Assembly (NCBI RefSeq): GCF_002954765.1
Contig: NZ_MTPW01000001.1
Coordinates: 248,001-312,000, forward strand
Reading direction: 5' to 3'
Length of the DNA stretch: 64,000 nt
From: Nonlabens arenilitoris
GTDB lineage: Bacteria > Bacteroidota > Bacteroidia > Flavobacteriales > Flavobacteriaceae
The translations under genes were made by a program, and so were the position numbers. Shown here in pieces: positions 1 through 8,830 of this stretch. A model generated the notes under the pieces. It searched no databases. It worked only from the letters and a program-made list of their open reading frames with translations, and was not told where the DNA came from. The stretch's first letter is position 1, and every line of letters starts with the position of its first letter.

Positions 1-108
1 AGTATGTTTATGGAAGATATGTATAGTTATAAGAGAGAGAAGGTGGTCACCGGAAATTTCACCTTTGTAGCCATAGATGACGATAAAAACCCAACTCCTA
101 TTTGCTAG
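1..108 (+). CDS. acyl-CoA thioesterase (hotdog fold), C-terminal fragment
   Basis: An open frame enters from the left edge and stops with TAG at 106-108. The 35 visible residues include VTGNFTFVAIDDDKNPTP, which resembles the last strand and tail of YciA/BFIT-type acyl-CoA hydrolases (typical ending G-x-F-T-F-V-A-I-D, then a Pro-rich tail). The family hydrolyses acyl-CoA thioesters in the cytoplasm. The next gene starts on the base after the stop codon, so the two are probably co-transcribed. The catalytic residues lie outside the window, so the call rests on the tail alone. Confidence 0.6.
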   Translation, partial: SMFMEDMYSYKREKVVTGNFTFVAIDDDKNPTPIC

Positions 109-2838: not shown

Positions 2839-2881
2839 TAAATTTAGACAGATCAATGATTAATAACTATGACATTAATCA
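2839..2881 (-). promoter_or_regulatory. Crp/Fnr-type box plus -7 promoter of usp gene 1965-2816
   Basis: On the minus strand TGATTAATGTCA (2870-2881, TGA-N6-TCA) is followed after exactly 23 nt by TAAATTTA (2839-2846), a TAnnTTTR -7 box, and 22 nt later by the ATG. The spacing puts the box centre near -41, the class II activator position. The same layout occurs at four other promoters of this island. Confidence 0.75.
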
Positions 2882-2884
2882 TAC

Positions 2885-3727
2885 TTATTCTGGCAGAATG
2901 AGCAACGGTAAATTTGCTTGAAAGCTTATCTTTTCAACCGTTGATGTTTTTATAAGATTCTTTAAAAAACTATATTTATGTAACAATAAAACCAACAAGT
3001 GGACACTTTGTTTCTCACAAAAATTCTTAATGTCAGCTTCTAAAGAATGTTCACTTAACATCCAATGCGTTGTAAATTCAACGTCTTTTAACTGATCTTT
3101 AAACTTTTCGAAGTGAGGTTGCACCTCATCAAAAATATCGGACTGGTCATGAAAATGAACCAACTCTAATTTTGAATTTTTTGCATTTATCATTTTTATT
3201 AAAAAGGCAATATTCTCTTGTTGATTATATTGCTTAAGATCAGTCGCATAAGCTATCTTCTTAGGACATACATAATCCACGTTTTCTGATATTAAGAAAA
3301 GTGGAATTGGGTTTATGTTTTTAATCGTATCAACAGCTTGGCTACCTAGAAAAATCTCTTTTAATCCAGACGCGCCTTTTGTTCCCATAACGACAAAGTG
3401 TACATCTAGGTTCTCTATTAAATCATTAATAATATCATTAAGAGGTAATGCCGCATACATCAATTCAACTTTTAATTTCTGTCCCGCACAATCTAATTGT
3501 ATACGATGTGATAACTGTTCTAATTGACAATGAACTGTTGCTCTTAACTTTGCAATAATCACTTCATTTGCTACCGGATCCATTTTACTTATAGTATCTT
3601 TTAAACTCCTTTCATAAGAGTGCACTAAATAAATACTACAATCCTCCGCAGGAAATAATTGTGACGCATAAAATAAGGCGTTATATGCATTTTCAGAAAA
3701 ATCAGTGGGTACAATTATAGAAGCCAT
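2885..3727 (-). CDS. universal stress protein, two UspA domains
   Basis: I choose the ATG at 3727 because MASIIVPTDFSENAYNA then aligns with the start of the other Usp proteins; an in-frame upstream extension to 3769 would add 14 residues and run through the -7 box of its promoter. 280 aa. The N-terminal domain has GTKGASGLKEIFLGSQ, a complete G-x2-G-x9-G-S nucleotide site. The C-terminal domain lacks it and shows HKYSFLKNLI at the equivalent place. It is very close to the next gene in sequence, which suggests local duplication. Confidence 0.9.
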   Translation of the reverse strand: MASIIVPTDFSENAYNALFYASQLFPAEDCSIYLVHSYERSLKDTISKMDPVANEVIIAKLRATVHCQLEQLSHRIQLDCAGQKLKVELMYAALPLNDIINDLIENLDVHFVVMGTKGASGLKEIFLGSQAVDTIKNINPIPLFLISENVDYVCPKKIAYATDLKQYNQQENIAFLIKMINAKNSKLELVHFHDQSDIFDEVQPHFEKFKDQLKDVEFTTHWMLSEHSLEADIKNFCEKQSVHLLVLLLHKYSFLKNLIKTSTVEKISFQANLPLLILPE

Positions 3728-3745
3728 AATCATTATTTTAGATGT

Positions 3746-3788
3746 TAAAACTATAGCTTGTAAAAACAAGTATCTATGATAAAAATCA
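3746..3788 (-). promoter_or_regulatory. Crp/Fnr-type box plus -7 promoter of usp gene 2885-3727
   Basis: Minus strand: TGATTTTTATCA (3777-3788), 23 nt, TAGTTTTA (3746-3753), then 18 nt to the ATG. The TCA half-site overlaps the stop codon of the upstream usp gene (3786-3788), so the promoter is embedded in the gene junction. Confidence 0.75.
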
Positions 3789-4634
3789 GTTCTGAGTAGG
3801 TAAAATTAAAAAAGGAACACTTGCATGATGAACTACTTTTTTAACTACAGGTTTAAACAACAAATTCTCAAAAAAGTTATGCTTATTGTGTACTAAAACG
3901 AGCAAATCGATACCATGTCTAGATTGAAAATCATCCATTGCATCTAGGACGTCCATACCTTTTACAATTTGAGTAAGATGTGCATCACGTTTAAAAAATG
4001 CGTTTAGAGACTCCATATTTGCAACTTGCTGCGACGTTAGACTATTGCCATCATAGGCATTTAAAAAGATTAGTCTAGAGATATTTTTATTACAAATATT
4101 TTCAAGCAAATACATACCAGTATGATGTTCGTTTGTTTTATAATCAGTAGTAAATAAAATATCCTTAGGCTGCTTATAGCTATAACCTTGTGGCACACCT
4201 ATAACTGGCACCTTGGCATTTTTTATAACATGCATTGTTTGCGAGCCTATAAAAACTTCTTTAAGTCCAGAAGCTCCATTTGTTCCCATAATAATGAGGT
4301 CCAAATCATAATCGTTGACCAGTTCATTTACCTCAATACTTAACATATTAAAGGTAGAGATACCTTTAAAGACGTGATGCTCATCCCTATATTTTGCACT
4401 CACCTCATCAATGACTTTTTGCACTTGTTCCTTAGACTTCTTTTTAAACAATTCTCCTATTTCTAGATCTAAACCAGGATCATTACCATATGTAGTAGAA
4501 GTATAAAGAGCAACAGGCTCATAAGTATTGAGAACATAAAAATTACAATCTTCATTTCTAAAAAGCTGCACAGCATATTCTATTGCGTTGATGGAAGCTG
4601 CAGAAAAATCGGTAGGTAAAAGGATCTTTTTCAT
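3786..4634 (-). CDS. universal stress protein, two UspA domains
   Basis: 282 aa. Starts KKILLPTDFSAASINAIEYA. The nucleotide-binding motif is GTNGASGLKEVFIGSQ in the first domain. The second domain ends with HNKHNFFENLL and a hydrophobic strand FLILPTQN. Only 11 bases separate it from the preceding usp gene (4646-5443), and no TGA-N6-TCA box lies in that gap, so it should be the second gene of a two-gene transcript. Confidence 0.9.
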   Translation of the reverse strand: MKKILLPTDFSAASINAIEYAVQLFRNEDCNFYVLNTYEPVALYTSTTYGNDPGLDLEIGELFKKKSKEQVQKVIDEVSAKYRDEHHVFKGISTFNMLSIEVNELVNDYDLDLIIMGTNGASGLKEVFIGSQTMHVIKNAKVPVIGVPQGYSYKQPKDILFTTDYKTNEHHTGMYLLENICNKNISRLIFLNAYDGNSLTSQQVANMESLNAFFKRDAHLTQIVKGMDVLDAMDDFQSRHGIDLLVLVHNKHNFFENLLFKPVVKKVVHHASVPFLILPTQN

Positions 4635-4645
4635 AATAAATTATT

Positions 4646-5443
4646 TTATCGTGCTAGATTTTGAAGAATTAAAAAAGGAATTTTAAGATGTAATCCTAGA
4701 GCATCTATAGTAGTTGTTTTTAAGAAAGACTCTAGAAAAGAATGCTTGGAATTAACCAAAACCAATAAATCAATATCATTCTTATTTATAAAATTGTTAA
4801 TGACGGTAGTTCCATCGCCTAGATCGTGACGAGTATATTTTGTTACGCTTTCGCGAAAGCGTGATTCCCAGAATTCCTTAACCTCAATTTGTCTTTGAGA
4901 TAATTTATCAAACTGTGCTATATGCAGCAAATGCAACGAAGAACGATGTTGAAGTGCCAGATTACTTATTAAATCTAGTTCTCTATCTTTAAAAGGCACT
5001 TGCAGCCCAGAAGGAAATAGAATACTATCTGGACTTTTATACTCTAACTCGAGCGGTATAGCAAGTACAGGACAGCTTACATTTTTAATAACTTGTAAAG
5101 TATTACTACCGAGGCTTCTCTTGCGATCTGCTGTTTTACCTTGTGTTCCCATTACTATTAAATCAGCATTTAAAATATCGACTTGATCATTAAGTTGCGT
5201 GATAAAATTTCCTGCGATTGCGCGTGTTTCAAAACGATGATGATGATTATAAGTTAAGTACTCTACACGCTCTAATAAATGATCTAACTTATCTTCATAA
5301 TCTTGCTGCTTATCCTGCATAGGAAAATCATACGTATGCAGTATTATAAACTGCGTTTCTTCTTCAGTGAAATACTGTATGGCACATTGTAATGCATTGA
5401 ATGCATTCTCTGAAAAATCTGTGGGAACAATGATAACTTTCAT
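4646..5443 (-). CDS. universal stress protein, two UspA domains
   Basis: 265 aa. Starts KVIIVPTDFSENAFNAL. The first domain keeps G-x2-G-x9-G-S as GTQGKTADRKRSLGSN. The second domain has NSKHSFLESFLK. Residues RFRES in the second half are encoded by the genome-wide palindrome GCTTTCGCGAAAGC (4847-4860), which here lies inside coding sequence. A Crp/Fnr-type promoter precedes it (5466-5508). Confidence 0.9.
   Translation of the reverse strand: MKVIIVPTDFSENAFNALQCAIQYFTEEETQFIILHTYDFPMQDKQQDYEDKLDHLLERVEYLTYNHHHRFETRAIAGNFITQLNDQVDILNADLIVMGTQGKTADRKRSLGSNTLQVIKNVSCPVLAIPLELEYKSPDSILFPSGLQVPFKDRELDLISNLALQHRSSLHLLHIAQFDKLSQRQIEVKEFWESRFRESVTKYTRHDLGDGTTVINNFINKNDIDLLVLVNSKHSFLESFLKTTTIDALGLHLKIPFLILQNLAR
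4847..4860. repeat. GCTTTCGCGAAAGC palindrome, copy 1
   Basis: Exact copy, inside the usp gene at 4646-5443, where it is read as R-F-R-E-S. Flanking bases extend the symmetry by two pairs (AC...GT). Confidence 0.9.
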
Positions 5444-5465
5444 AATGGCGTTGTATTTATTGTTA

Positions 5466-5508
5466 TAAATCTATGATTTACAACACTTAAAAACTATGAC
5501 ATTAATCA
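5466..5508 (-). promoter_or_regulatory. Crp/Fnr-type box plus -7 promoter of usp genes 4646-5443 and 3786-4634
   Basis: Minus strand: TGATTAATGTCA (5497-5508), 23 nt, TAGATTTA (5466-5473), 22 nt to the ATG. The 12-base box is identical to the one at 2870-2881. Confidence 0.75.
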
Positions 5509-5516
5509 GTTAAGAG

Positions 5517-6323
5517 TTATTCATGTATAATTAGAAAAGGTACTTTTTTACGATAATTCATTGAATTAACATCTGTAGGTAAGAATAGAATATTTTCTAA
5601 AAAATTAATGTTTTTAGCAAATAGGATTACTAACTCAACCTGATGAATATTGATAAATAATTGTAAAGCATCATCCATTGTTTTATCTAATACCGAGTGA
5701 AAACTACAAGAAAATTGTTGTAAAGTATTTTTAAGGAAAGATTTATTTTCTATTTGACTTTGCGTTAAAACTGTAAGACTGGTTTGCAATTGCAATATAT
5801 TAAGATGTGTCTGTGTGCGTTTTATAAAGCTAGTCAACATATAAATTGCCTTTGAACGATGTGTAAAATTAAAATCTGATAGTAAAACAACTTGTTTTAA
5901 AGGACTACATTTAAAACTTTGCGGCACTACAAGTACAGGGCATTTTACTCTTGTAATAATTGCTCTGGTATGAGTAGCATCTATCTGTCCGTTGTTACTA
6001 GCACTAAACACATCTGTACAAACAATCAAATCTATATCGTTACTATAAACGGCTTCTTTTATTTGAGTAATAAAACTGCCTTGCAATGATAGATTAACTA
6101 TTTTTTGATGTGGTGCTAGTAGTATCGTTAAGGACTCAATCTTATTTTTTATATAACAACTACATACATTTACATTACTGGACTCTACTTTACCTAAAGA
6201 ATTTAATGATGTAGCTGGCAATATGTAAAAGCAAATACCAGCGTCACGATACATAGATATGGCGCATTGCGCAGCAGCCCATGACGGATCTGTGTTATCT
6301 ACCGGTATAAGAATGTGTTTCAT
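5517..6323 (-). CDS. divergent universal stress protein-like, nucleotide motif lost
   Basis: I choose ATG 6323 (MKHILIPVDNTDPSWAAAQ) over the in-frame codon at 6344, which falls within the -7 box. 268 aa, two Usp-like domains. Unlike the four neighbours, the first domain has no G-x2-G-x9-G-S: the region reads VCTDVFSASNNGQIDATHT. The C-terminal motif is also changed (KNINFLENILF). It therefore probably does not bind ATP in the usual way, and may act through pairing with the other Usp proteins. It is first in the minus-strand usp array. Confidence 0.8.
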   Translation of the reverse strand: MKHILIPVDNTDPSWAAAQCAISMYRDAGICFYILPATSLNSLGKVESSNVNVCSCYIKNKIESLTILLAPHQKIVNLSLQGSFITQIKEAVYSNDIDLIVCTDVFSASNNGQIDATHTRAIITRVKCPVLVVPQSFKCSPLKQVVLLSDFNFTHRSKAIYMLTSFIKRTQTHLNILQLQTSLTVLTQSQIENKSFLKNTLQQFSCSFHSVLDKTMDDALQLFINIHQVELVILFAKNINFLENILFLPTDVNSMNYRKKVPFLIIHE

Positions 6324-6343
6324 TGCAAACTGCGTTGAGTTCA

Positions 6344-6386
6344 CAAATGTATCTGGACTAGTTTTATGAAATAATGATAAAAATCA
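6344..6386 (-). promoter_or_regulatory. Crp/Fnr-type box plus -7 promoter of usp gene 5517-6323
   Basis: Minus strand: TGATTTTTATCA (6375-6386), 23 nt, TACATTTG (6344-6351), an exact TAnnTTTG, then 20 nt to the ATG. It lies just after the stop of the regulator gene. Confidence 0.78.
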
Positions 6387-6398
6387 GTTTTAGAATAA

Positions 6399-7448
6399 TT
6401 ATTCAACTTTTTCTAGTCCATTTATATCTATAATTCTAATACTGCGACCTTCTATCTCAATAAGCCCATCCTTTTTAAATCCAGATAATGTGCGTATCAA
6501 ACTCTCTGTAGCAATTCCAGCAACGCCAGCTAGATCATTACGAGTGATGCATATATCCTCTTGGGCCTGTTTATTAAATGCACTAGCAAATTGAAGAATT
6601 GTTTGAGCAGTTTTCTTACGCACAGAACTGTAAGCCATTTGTACGAGTTGTGTTTTAATATGAGCTACGTTATGCGATAGCAATTGTAACAACTCCATCG
6701 ATAAGTTATTGCTATGGTATAGAATGTCTTTAAGCACAGACTTTGAAACACCTACTAGAGTTACATCTTCTAGCGCTTCTGCAGATTCCTCATAAGCTAC
6801 ATTATCTAGTATGGACGTAAATCCTAAAAACTCATCTTCTTTAAACAAAGAGGTGATTAATTCTTTTCCACTCTTGTCAATTTGATAAGTTTTAACAACA
6901 CCTCTAGTAATTAAGTAAATTCTATAAGAACGTGAGCCTTCTTGATAAATCACCTCTCCTTTTTTGAAACTGAGCTCCTCTCCATGATCGTCAAAGAAGT
7001 TTTTTAATTCATTAAGGTTGCGCAACTCCTCTTCTTCATTATTGGGTTTTGATGTACTATCTAATAGAGATTTAAAAATTTCAGCTTTGGCTATCCGAGT
7101 TTCTATTGCATTTAATAATTCTTCTTCTTCAAATGGTTTTGTCAAATAATCATCTGCACCTAGATCCATACCTTTACGTACCTCTTTGTGATCTGTTCTT
7201 GCTGACAGGAATATAAATGGAATCTGGTTGGTGTTTACATCTGAAGATAATGCCTCTAAAACGCCATATCCATCCACTTCAGGCATCATTATATCACAAA
7301 TGATAACGTCTGGATGAATCTTTTGAGCCTGCTCTATTCCTGCGCGACCATTAGGCGCTGTAATAACCTCATAATCTGATAGTTCGAGTAATTCTGCAGT
7401 ATTTTCTCTTAATGCAGCGTCATCTTCTATAATTAAGATTTTTTTCAT
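6399..7448 (-). CDS. response regulator with Crp/Fnr output (REC + cNMP-binding + HTH)
   Basis: 349 aa hybrid regulator. Residues 1-120 are a CheY-like receiver with the acidic pair E8/D9/D10, phospho-acceptor Asp52 in CDIMMPEVDG and Lys104 in YLTKPF. About 150-265 is a cyclic-nucleotide-binding-type beta roll (GEVIYQEGSRSYRIYLI). About 270-340 is a Crp-type winged helix (ICITRNDLAGVAGIATESLIRTL). Joining a receiver to a Crp/Fnr output is uncommon. I see no Cys cluster for an Fnr-type iron-sulfur centre. The adjacent PAS kinase is the obvious partner. The output type predicts TGA-N6-TCA sites, and such sites precede the neighbouring usp and terB-like genes. Confidence 0.88.
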   Translation of the reverse strand: MKKILIIEDDAALRENTAELLELSDYEVITAPNGRAGIEQAQKIHPDVIICDIMMPEVDGYGVLEALSSDVNTNQIPFIFLSARTDHKEVRKGMDLGADDYLTKPFEEEELLNAIETRIAKAEIFKSLLDSTSKPNNEEEELRNLNELKNFFDDHGEELSFKKGEVIYQEGSRSYRIYLITRGVVKTYQIDKSGKELITSLFKEDEFLGFTSILDNVAYEESAEALEDVTLVGVSKSVLKDILYHSNNLSMELLQLLSHNVAHIKTQLVQMAYSSVRKKTAQTILQFASAFNKQAQEDICITRNDLAGVAGIATESLIRTLSGFKKDGLIEIEGRSIRIIDINGLEKVE

Positions 7449-7455
7449 TATCGTA

Positions 7456-8681
7456 TTATTTACTTGCAGGAATAGTTACAACAAAAGTAGACCCTTTATT
7501 TTCTTCACTTTGAAATGTAATATTACCACCTAAGTTTTTTAAATGATTTTTACAATATTAAGACCTATACCAGTACCTGGATTGAGTAATACATTTTCTG
7601 CCCTGAAATAACGATCAAATATAAAACGTTGTTCATGTACCGGTATTCCTATACCTTGATCAATTATTTTAATTTCTGTAAAGTCTTCCTTTTCTAAAAC
7701 TTTTATATCTACTGTAGTACCTTCACTAGAATACTTAACAGCATTATGTATAAGGTTACTAAGAGACAATTCCAGTATTTTTTCATCAAAATCTAATGTT
7801 ATAGCATCTGCATTTTTTGGGTAATTTATACTTTGACCGTCTTTCAGATGAACATTTGCATCATAGATCACCTCATTAAGCACTTTACTTAATGGAAAAG
7901 ATGATATTCGATAATTAGTCTTACCGGTATCTAATCGCTCAATAGATAGAAAATCATCTATTATTGTATTAAGGTATTTTACTTTACTTTTTATTGTGTT
8001 AAGGTGTTTTATCCTTTTTTCCTGATGTTCTTCTTTGGAGTATTTTGAAATTAATGTTGCCGATGTCAAAATACCACTTATTGGCGTTTTAAATTCATGG
8101 GAAACTAATGATAAGAACTTTGTCTTTAATTCATTTAATTCTTTTTCTTTTTGCAGCGCCTCATTAGCATTTCTCTCTGCTTCTTTTCTTAGCGATACCT
8201 CTTCCTGCAGCGATTCAACAGCTGCATTTAAAGATTTTGTACGTTCTTCAATCTTCTCTTCTAGATGATTATTGAGATCTTCTATATACTTTTCTTGAGC
8301 TTTACGTATCGTAATATCTGTGACCAGAGCCATCACGTAATCGTGACCATGTAATGTAAAAGGATTTAAACCAGCTTCAACCGGGAATTGTGAGCCGTCT
8401 TTGCGCATTCCATAAAGCACGCGACCTTTACCCATTTCTCGCTTCTGACTGTGCTTCATAAAACCATCAAAGTGAGAATGATGTTCTTTGTGATAAGATG
8501 ATGGGATTAATGTATGAAGATGCTGGCCTTCAAGCTCTTCTTTATCATAACCAAAAATACCTCTTGCCGAAGCGTTAGTTGCGACAATAAACTGTTCTGA
8601 ATTTACTACAACTATACCTTCTGACGCACCTTCAAATAAGATGCGAAACGCTTCTTCTACACTTTCTTCAAAAAACTTCAT
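7456..8681 (-). CDS. PAS sensor histidine kinase, frameshifted near the C-terminus
   Basis: PAS domain (about 10-125), coiled coil (130-188), H box with His195 (LSLVSHEFKTPISGI), N box (LSNLIHNAVKYSS), G1 (DQGIGIP), F box and G2 (GTGIGLNIVK). There is no membrane segment, so it senses in the cytoplasm. The frame as read stops at 7539 right after G2. The remaining ~30 residues (HLKNLGGNITF ... STFVVTIPASK, stop 7456-7458) continue in another frame. One base is missing in an A run (T5 on the plus strand, 7547-7551); restoring it gives 409 codons. It is either a real inactivating or contingency mutation, or a homopolymer sequencing error. The intended stop lies 7 bases before the regulator's ATG, so the two form an operon. 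Confidence 0.85.
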
Positions 8682-8787
8682 ATCTCAAAAATACAATTAA
8701 AAGAACTGATTTTTTAAACTCAGTAATAAAGCTATTAAACCTTATCAATACATCTCTCTTCTATTAAATACAACCATTTTGTTATCA

Positions 8788-8830
8788 TGATATAAATCAT
8801 AGTTCTCCTTTAAAACAACTCATAAATTTG
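8788..8830 (+). promoter_or_regulatory. Crp/Fnr-type box plus -7 promoter of terB-like gene
   Basis: TGATATAAATCA (8788-8799), 23 nt, TAAATTTG (8823-8830), then 18 nt to the ATG at 8849. This is the only plus-strand member of the promoter set. It shows that an upstream TTG start at 8828 is not the real start, because that codon is part of the -7 box. Confidence 0.78.

Follow-up and report, generated by a model that had tools for sequence, protein, structure and literature searches.

The window, a 64,000-nucleotide stretch of Nonlabens arenilitoris DNA, carries usp genes beside those of a response regulator fused to a Crp/Fnr output (REC-Crp), a PAS histidine kinase, and a TerB-like protein (Table 1). 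The usp gene at 3786-4634 lies 11 nt from the one at 4646-5443, has no box of its own, and is probably cotranscribed with it. The kinase reading frame ends early and is shorter than in N. ulvanivorans, which may stem from an error in sequencing or from a true loss.

Table 1. Genes and promoter elements of the usp locus (window coordinates).
Feature	Position	Strand	Evidence or assignment
usp gene, 283 aa	1965..2816	-	Pfam Usp 2.1e-17
usp gene	2885..3727	-	Pfam Usp 4.9e-19; listed ORF begins at TTG 3769
usp gene	3786..4634	-	Pfam Usp 1.5e-28
usp gene, 265 aa	4646..5443	-	Pfam Usp 3.7e-25
usp gene, divergent, ATG at 6323	5517..6323	-	Pfam Usp 2.5e-7
REC-Crp/Fnr response regulator, 349 aa	6399..7448	-	Response_reg 6.5e-31, cNMP_binding 1.4e-16, HTH_Crp_2 2.8e-12
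PAS histidine kinase, FixL-like PAS	7539..8681	-	profile match, alignment, structure comparison
TerB-like gene, 135 aa	8849..9256	+	
Crp/Fnr box TGATTAATGTCA	2870..2881	-	usp 1965-2816
-7 element TAAATTTA	2839..2846	-	usp 1965-2816
Crp/Fnr box TGATTTTTATCA	3777..3788	-	usp 2885-3727
-7 element TAGTTTTA	3746..3753	-	usp 2885-3727
Crp/Fnr box TGATTAATGTCA	5497..5508	-	two-gene usp unit, 4646-5443 and 3786-4634
-7 element TAGATTTA	5466..5473	-	two-gene usp unit
Crp/Fnr box TGATTTTTATCA	6375..6386	-	usp 5517-6323
-7 element TACATTTG	6344..6351	-	usp 5517-6323
Crp/Fnr box TGATATAAATCA	8788..8799	+	TerB-like gene
-7 element TAAATTTG	8823..8830	+	TerB-like gene

Five promoters at this locus share one layout. 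The TGA-N6-TCA palindrome occurs at all five sites as TGAT-N4-RTCA and is followed by a linker of exactly 23 nt (N23) and a -7 element of the form TAnnTTTR. The distances from the end of the -7 element to the ATG are 22, 18, 22, 20, and 18 nt (in the order of Table 1), the 18 nt for the usp gene at 2885-3769 assuming the ATG at 3727, with another in-frame ATG 6 nt upstream. These measurements agree with the first-pass annotation in the coordinates and strands of the boxes, their consensus, the constant linker, the claimed 18 to 22 nt to the ATG, and the continuation of four of the five boxes by TAG.

Spacing, conservation, and promoter class

The architecture, its conservation, the genes it precedes, and its co-occurrence with regulators were all established by computation. 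The window holds five matches, against a mean of 0.24 and a largest value of 2 in 100 dinucleotide shuffles. Across 80 related loci, kept from at least 579 relatives, N23 gave 376 matches versus about 9 for each other spacing, and in 149 genomes 664 strict sites were found versus 14 for a reversed control pattern. Furthermore, an ORF started 8 to 55 nt downstream of 354 of the 381 N23 sites in 81 sequences (the 80 relatives and the window), 13 of the 381 having no ORF within 200 nt. The same test in these sequences gave 70/249 for spacings of 8 to 22 and 27 to 40 nt, and 2/12 for N26. We rejected N24 and N25 as additional spacings: their counts are slightly raised (18 and 21 in the 80 loci), but in the 81 sequences an ORF start follows only 2/18 and 2/22 matches.

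In the N. arenilitoris genome, TGAT-N4-RTCA followed by TAnnTTT after 15 to 31 nt was matched 52 times, with 12 matches at N23 and 0 to 5 at every other spacing. A looser N23 scan returned 21 matches, compared with 8 for the reversed pattern; 11 fall within ORFs and 10 are intergenic. The intergenic matches comprise the five window sites and those before a sixth usp gene, ccoS, hemN, a 138-aa gene of unknown function, and an ileS-like gene, the last with a box that departs from the consensus and is probably there by chance. Lone matches do occur by chance, as the intra-ORF matches and the reversed-pattern count illustrate. However, the shuffles, the N23 peak, the reversed controls, and the proximity of ORF starts all concur with the earlier claim that the constant spacing is very improbable by chance; they rule out coincidence, to which we assign virtually no probability.

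A strict site was present in 39 of the 118 genomes of a phylum-wide survey: 11/11 in the family (N. arenilitoris included), 2/2 in the order, 12/16 elsewhere in the class, and 14/89 beyond the class, with one or two sites each. Our claim for the rule does not extend to the whole phylum.

To our knowledge, few descriptions exist of activator-dependent promoters in Bacteroidota, a phylum in which sigma-A works with a different core promoter. Searching the open-licence literature by titles and abstract openings, we found no account of this promoter rule and no FixL/REC-Crp usp regulon in Bacteroidota. In the excerpt of a study on Flavobacterium psychrophilum (PMC9723704), the -7 box occupies -12 to -5; this geometry, carried over to Nonlabens and combined with the N23 linker, would place the box centre at -41.5, the class II position. 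Exact spacing, conservation, ORF proximity, and this predicted start-site geometry strongly support the putative class II Crp/Fnr architecture that the first-pass annotation had read at the five sites. A Crp/Fnr-family dimer would bind TGAT-N4-RTCA centred at -41.5 and, once bound, recruit the Bacteroidota sigma-A polymerase at TAnnTTTR.

Candidate regulators and their signal

The REC-Crp protein encoded between the boxes had been named as their natural ligand, which is plausible but not unique. A second candidate, an FNR paralogue (C1:2393569-2394258), is encoded near the cbb3 oxidase genes of the same genome. It matches the NCBIfam Fnr model at 1.1e-32, yet below the model cut-off (113 versus 228 bits). 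Unlike REC-Crp, it has no receiver domain and carries conserved cysteines, four of which are kept in 19/21 FNR-set proteins, in a layout that presumably differs from that of E. coli FNR. Both proteins have the recognition helix ATES-x-IR and the same target architecture, and in this genome they probably share sites.

The distribution of sites among genomes bears on the division of labor. With thresholds set by eye (E<=1e-79 for the presence of REC-Crp; E<=1e-45 for FNR orthology, weaker FNR matches of G018, G040, G033, G066, and G108 being scored as negative), the median number of sites per genome was 7 with both regulators, 5 with REC-Crp only, 4 with FNR only, and 0 with neither. Consequently, either regulator seems to sustain the promoters. 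One alternative is that the FNR paralogue activates all sites while REC-Crp has other targets or merely modulates; the architecture in FNR-only genomes and the conserved cysteines would fit. Nevertheless, we judge it very unlikely, as all 31 REC-Crp genomes without an FNR orthologue have sites and genomes with both regulators have more than those with FNR alone (p=1.9e-5).

A converse division, in which REC-Crp alone drives the five window promoters and the FNR paralogue is limited to ccoS and hemN, has several observations in its favor. The REC-Crp gene is flanked by the five sites, and a usp gene follows 7/28 strict sites in five REC-Crp genomes versus 0/30 in four FNR-only genomes (3 of these 30 sites without an assigned ORF). 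TerB-like genes also follow REC-Crp: 52 of their 56 carriers have it, and they occur in 52/74 genomes with REC-Crp versus 4/75 without. On the contrary, the recognition-helix motif is identical in both proteins, and hemN and ccoS are among the genes that retain the architecture where REC-Crp is the only regulator. With a loose -7 box, the architecture precedes 18/39 usp genes in REC-Crp genomes versus 5/23 in FNR-only genomes among the matches listed, with at most 30 loci per set (p=0.06), which may indicate a weak enrichment but leaves usp sites where REC-Crp is missing. No established sequence feature splits the usp/terB set from the ccoS/hemN set. REC-Crp as sole ligand is not sustained by the shared helix and the sites of FNR-only genomes, and we regard this division as possible but doubtful, preferring promoters shared by both regulators.

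Two candidate signatures were also considered. TCATAG, as a mark of REC-Crp, was discarded, being found before two usp genes whose genomes lack this regulator. In the linker, a T-tract at positions 3 to 5 occurs at 15/15 ccoS, 1/55 TerB-like, and 33/168 usp sites; as a candidate FNR signature, it is retained at the ccoS of a genome without an FNR orthologue (G114). As to whether this architecture also controls the kinase operon, a kinase motif was looked for among the N23 targets of the 81 sequences and appeared in none.

The kinase gene lies directly upstream of REC-Crp in 77/80 loci. Among solved structures, 1d06 was the best match of its PAS domain (5.5e-16), and Foldseek placed FixL first, with FixL and DosP as the closest solved structures. 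Kinase His67 aligns with the proximal heme histidine of FixL and is kept in 77/77 ungapped rows, with 13 different residues at the position that follows it. Arg87 of the window protein aligns with R220 of FixL, presumably the distal regulatory arginine. It is important to consider that an aligned histidine is not proof of heme in this PAS domain. The system may instead respond to redox, NO, energy state, or light, through a PAS domain with another ligand or none: Arg87 is kept in only 63/77 rows, and LOV and other PAS structures come close behind in the Foldseek list, as a common fold would lead one to expect. Such a signal seems unlikely to us given that heme PAS structures fill the first 19 rows, that His67 is invariant beside a variable neighbor, and that ccoS and hemN are among the targets. 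In the excerpt of PMC8510549, CRP/FNR homologues of Flavobacteriales and others are predicted to sense carbon, a reading not adopted here.

A putative low-oxygen promoter set

In the N. arenilitoris genome, ccoS and hemN also have this architecture in front of them, as do genes for HPF, Hsp20, and MlaE in relatives. The description of a Usp/TerB stress regulon is therefore too narrow, and with these additional genes the set looks like a low-oxygen or dormancy one. Low oxygen induces cbb3 oxidase and heme genes in F. psychrophilum, according to the excerpt of PMC9723704. These observations suggest that the five gene starts may be switched on together at low oxygen.

We infer the protein-DNA binding, phosphorylation, heme and oxygen sensing, and low-oxygen induction in the following scheme. 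The FixL-like heme-PAS kinase, whose gene lies immediately upstream of the local REC-Crp gene, would switch REC-Crp, and the cysteine-rich FNR paralogue would provide a second input with an overlapping regulon. Their low-oxygen/energy-stress set would comprise usp and TerB-like genes, ccoS of the cbb3 oxidase, and hemN (oxygen-independent heme synthesis), joined in relatives by genes for Hsp20 and for HPF, a ribosome hibernation factor. We give this reading as a whole, with class II promoters shared by kinase-switched REC-Crp and FNR, a probability of about 0.7.

For the Flavobacteriaceae, we see roughly even odds that one fixed low-oxygen promoter set at -41.5 is served by either of two sensors: an FNR rich in cysteines, or a heme-PAS kinase acting on a fused REC-Crp without a FixJ step. 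Sensors would be gained, lost, or swapped while the promoters stay unchanged, and REC-Crp lineages would add usp and TerB-like dormancy genes. Genomes with both regulators, one, or neither form a natural set in which sensor exchange on constant promoters is testable. The layout recurs at hundreds of related promoters. As a mark of low-oxygen genes, the rule of palindrome, 23 nt, and TAnnTTTR would make the regulon readable from the genomes of a large, mostly marine family.

Comparison with known systems

E. coli FNR and rhizobial FixK act at class II promoters with TGA-N6-TCA centred at -41.5. The Nonlabens sites share the predicted palindrome position, the E and R at the same places in the helix, and ccoS/cbb3 and hemN among the targets; in contrast, their core is the Bacteroidota TAnnTTTR -7 box, and one of the two candidate activators has a receiver domain. 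The rhizobial FixL-FixJ-FixK cascade joins a PAS kinase, a response regulator, and a Crp/Fnr output to microaerobic targets. Nonlabens has the same components, with a PAS kinase closest to FixL, but usp and TerB-like genes are its main local targets, and a FixJ step appears to be absent because receiver and Crp/Fnr output form one protein. The output domains of FixJ and DosR belong to the LuxR family, whereas that of REC-Crp is HTH_Crp_2, of neither the FixJ nor the DosR type.

The actinobacterial DosR/DevR (DosST) and OsdR (OsdK) systems, as described in the excerpt of PMC5069765, likewise place a two-component system beside a usp cluster and control a hypoxia/dormancy set that includes heat-shock genes. 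However, in Nonlabens the HTH is of the Crp type and the PAS kinase resembles FixL, and box and promoter class are unrelated. The likeness to the DosR/DevR regulon is one of way of working only. In these terms, the heme-PAS kinase and REC-Crp may be read as a low-oxygen switch that works like DosR and FixL-FixJ-FixK.

Promoter architecture and its targets

The layout that the first-pass annotation proposed for the promoters of four usp transcripts and the TerB-like gene was recovered from the window sequence: all five combine TGAT-N4-RTCA, a 23-nt linker (N23) and TAnnTTTR, the ATG lies 18 to 22 nt past the -7 element, and TAG directly follows the box at 4/5 sites. Its judgment that chance is very unlikely also held, with shuffled versions of the window giving a mean of 0.24 matches (maximum 2) against five real sites. 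PMC9723704 places the sigma-A -7 box of Flavobacterium psychrophilum at -12 to -5. Because the 12-nt box ends 23 nt before -12, it would span -47 to -36, and the resulting centre at -41.5 is the class II position, in agreement with the claimed centre near -41.

Scanning the whole 3.32-Mb genome at spacings of 15 to 31 nt gave 52 matches, 12 at 23 nt (five in the window, C1:248001-312000) and at most five at any other spacing; a looser N23 scan returned 21 matches versus 8 with the reversed pattern. Of the 21, 11 fall inside ORFs and the other 10 are intergenic, with usp, ccoS and hemN among the genes that follow. At hemN, the first-ATG rule selects a short ORF, and the assignment was made by separate analyses. 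The 138-aa protein had no match in Pfam or NCBIfam. One match, whose box lacks the consensus, precedes a gene judged by eye to be ileS-like; we regard it as a chance hit.

Coordinates of the sites and sequence features
Feature	Position	Remark
Intergenic N23 matches 1-5		five window sites
Intergenic N23 match	598925	sixth usp
Intergenic N23 match	2396797	ccoS
Intergenic N23 match	2404844	hemN
Intergenic N23 match (L120)	G000:C1:2497058-2497099	own genome; 138-aa protein, function not known
Intergenic N23 match		ileS-like gene
Divergent promoters (L127/L131)	G015:C2:256994-257067	another genome searched
Palindrome GCTTTCGCGAAAGC	window 4847, 10837, 19992, 26322, 30958, 37067, 45714, 49440, 54526
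Five-A run	window 7547-7551 (-)	kinase gene

In 80 loci around REC-Crp relatives, fetched as the top-ranking ones among at least 579, TGA-N6-TCA followed by TAnnTTT occurred 376 times at spacing 23, whereas any other spacing between 8 and 40 gave 1 to 21 matches. With the window included, an ORF started 8 to 55 nt downstream of 354/381 N23 sites, compared with 70/249 at control spacings (8-22 and 27-40). Sequence clustering of the targets in this same set yielded usp-like (173 sites, 78 loci), TerB-like (57 sites), HPF (25), CcoS (15), small metal-binding, HMA-like (7) and Hsp20 (6) groups, among others. HPF, CcoS (FixS), Hsp20, hemN (radical SAM) and MlaE were named through Pfam/NCBIfam from one member each, and HMA-like, DinB-like and nadA-like by eye.

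Linker positions 3-5 read TTT at 15/15 ccoS sites of relatives (e.g., locus L036) and at 1/55 TerB-like sites, which may be a remnant of a -33 element or a tuner of promoter strength. At L127/L131, two complete divergent N23 promoters have one palindrome in common; a single dimer site may therefore serve both directions. Separately, GCTTTCGCGAAAGC is a genus-specific dispersed palindrome, with 9 copies in the window, 3 in the 21-kb Nonlabens ulvanivorans locus (L035) and 8 in the other 79 loci combined.

REC-Crp and FNR as candidate regulators

REC-Crp had been named the natural ligand of the boxes. Four HTH_Crp_2 matches occur in the genome, and the recognition helix of REC-Crp (ATESLIRTL, present in 66/81 REC-Crp proteins) is nearly identical to that of a 230-aa FNR-like protein (ATESCIRLL); the FNR set, made up of this protein and 20 retrieved ones, shows ATES-x-IR in 19/21 members. 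Cysteines at positions 5, 8, 54 and 107 of the own-genome protein recur in 19/21 of this set, a layout other than that of E. coli FNR (C20, C23, C29 and C122). Most FNR relatives (L245-L264) carry a further cysteine near position 28, absent from the own-genome protein (L031).

Across 149 genomes of 148 genera, searched for strict sites, REC-Crp and FNR, totals added up by hand gave 664 sites versus 14 for the control.

Strict sites by regulator content
Regulators	Genomes	Median sites	Zero-site genomes
Both	43	7	0
REC-Crp only	31	5	0
FNR only	53	4	2
Neither	22	0	14

Since these genomes share ancestry, p-values over them are a guide only. Sites precede hemN in three genomes with REC-Crp and no FNR orthologue (G024, G086 and G114; in G114 ccoS too), and both genes are also preceded by a site in FNR-only genomes. 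With the strict box, a usp gene follows 0/30 sites in four FNR-only genomes versus 7/28 in five genomes that encode REC-Crp, of which G077 carries FNR as well (p=0.004, guide only); with the loose -7 box, the architecture stands before 5/23 usp genes in six FNR-only genomes and before 18/39 in six REC-Crp genomes (p=0.06, guide only). The claim for REC-Crp is plausible, though not as an exclusive assignment, as FNR-only genomes keep the architecture and the helices nearly coincide. Site and usp counts by regulator class suggest that the two proteins share the promoter rule and that usp is weighted towards REC-Crp. A TerB-like gene is present in 52/74 REC-Crp genomes versus 4/75 others (p=1e-17, guide only).

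Within the genus, G009 is a natural loss case, without REC-Crp, an FNR orthologue (at the threshold used), a TerB-like gene or a strict site. The window REC-Crp shares 91% identity with that of N. ulvanivorans; a more distant REC-Crp group shows 40-45%. Several genomes (G034, G054, G095, G096, G105, G117 and others) encode two full-length copies.

The kinase as putative oxygen sensor

In 77/80 loci, the gene immediately upstream of REC-Crp, in the same orientation, encodes a histidine kinase. The best solved-structure match of its PAS domain is FixL (5.5e-16), with DosP and EcDos also among the matches. Using the predicted PAS model (mean pLDDT 80.8; low around residues 61-80, which include His67), the first 19 Foldseek rows were FixL, DosP/EcDos and a single other heme PAS structure, closely followed by LOV and other PAS proteins. 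His67, aligned to the FixL heme ligand, is kept in 77/77 ungapped rows, while the next position shows 13 different residues; the Arg aligned with R220 of FixL occurs in 63/77. The evidence favours an oxygen-sensing heme in the kinase PAS, short of proof. The window kinase frame shifts and ends early, at 7539, because its A run is one base shorter than the six in N. ulvanivorans (L035), either a sequencing error or a real loss of the last part of the kinase.

Proposed route and known systems

Most likely, the kinase would phosphorylate REC-Crp at low oxygen, and REC-Crp would bind the -41.5 box to activate usp, terB and additional genes. The steps that we infer are the sensing of oxygen, the phosphorylation and the binding. 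FNR, which would read oxygen via its cysteines, would overlap with this route. The targets ccoS and hemN fit the induction of cbb3 oxidase and heme synthesis genes at low oxygen described for F. psychrophilum (PMC9723704).

The single elements are of known kinds. Our search of open-licence papers found no description of the fixed Bacteroidota class II rule, of a FixL/REC-Crp route to usp genes or of the apparent REC-Crp/FNR exchangeability. The system would resemble DosR/OsdR (PMC5069765) in controlling usp clusters, and FixL-FixJ-FixK in its mode of working, here with FixJ and FixK merged, but it is a member of neither.
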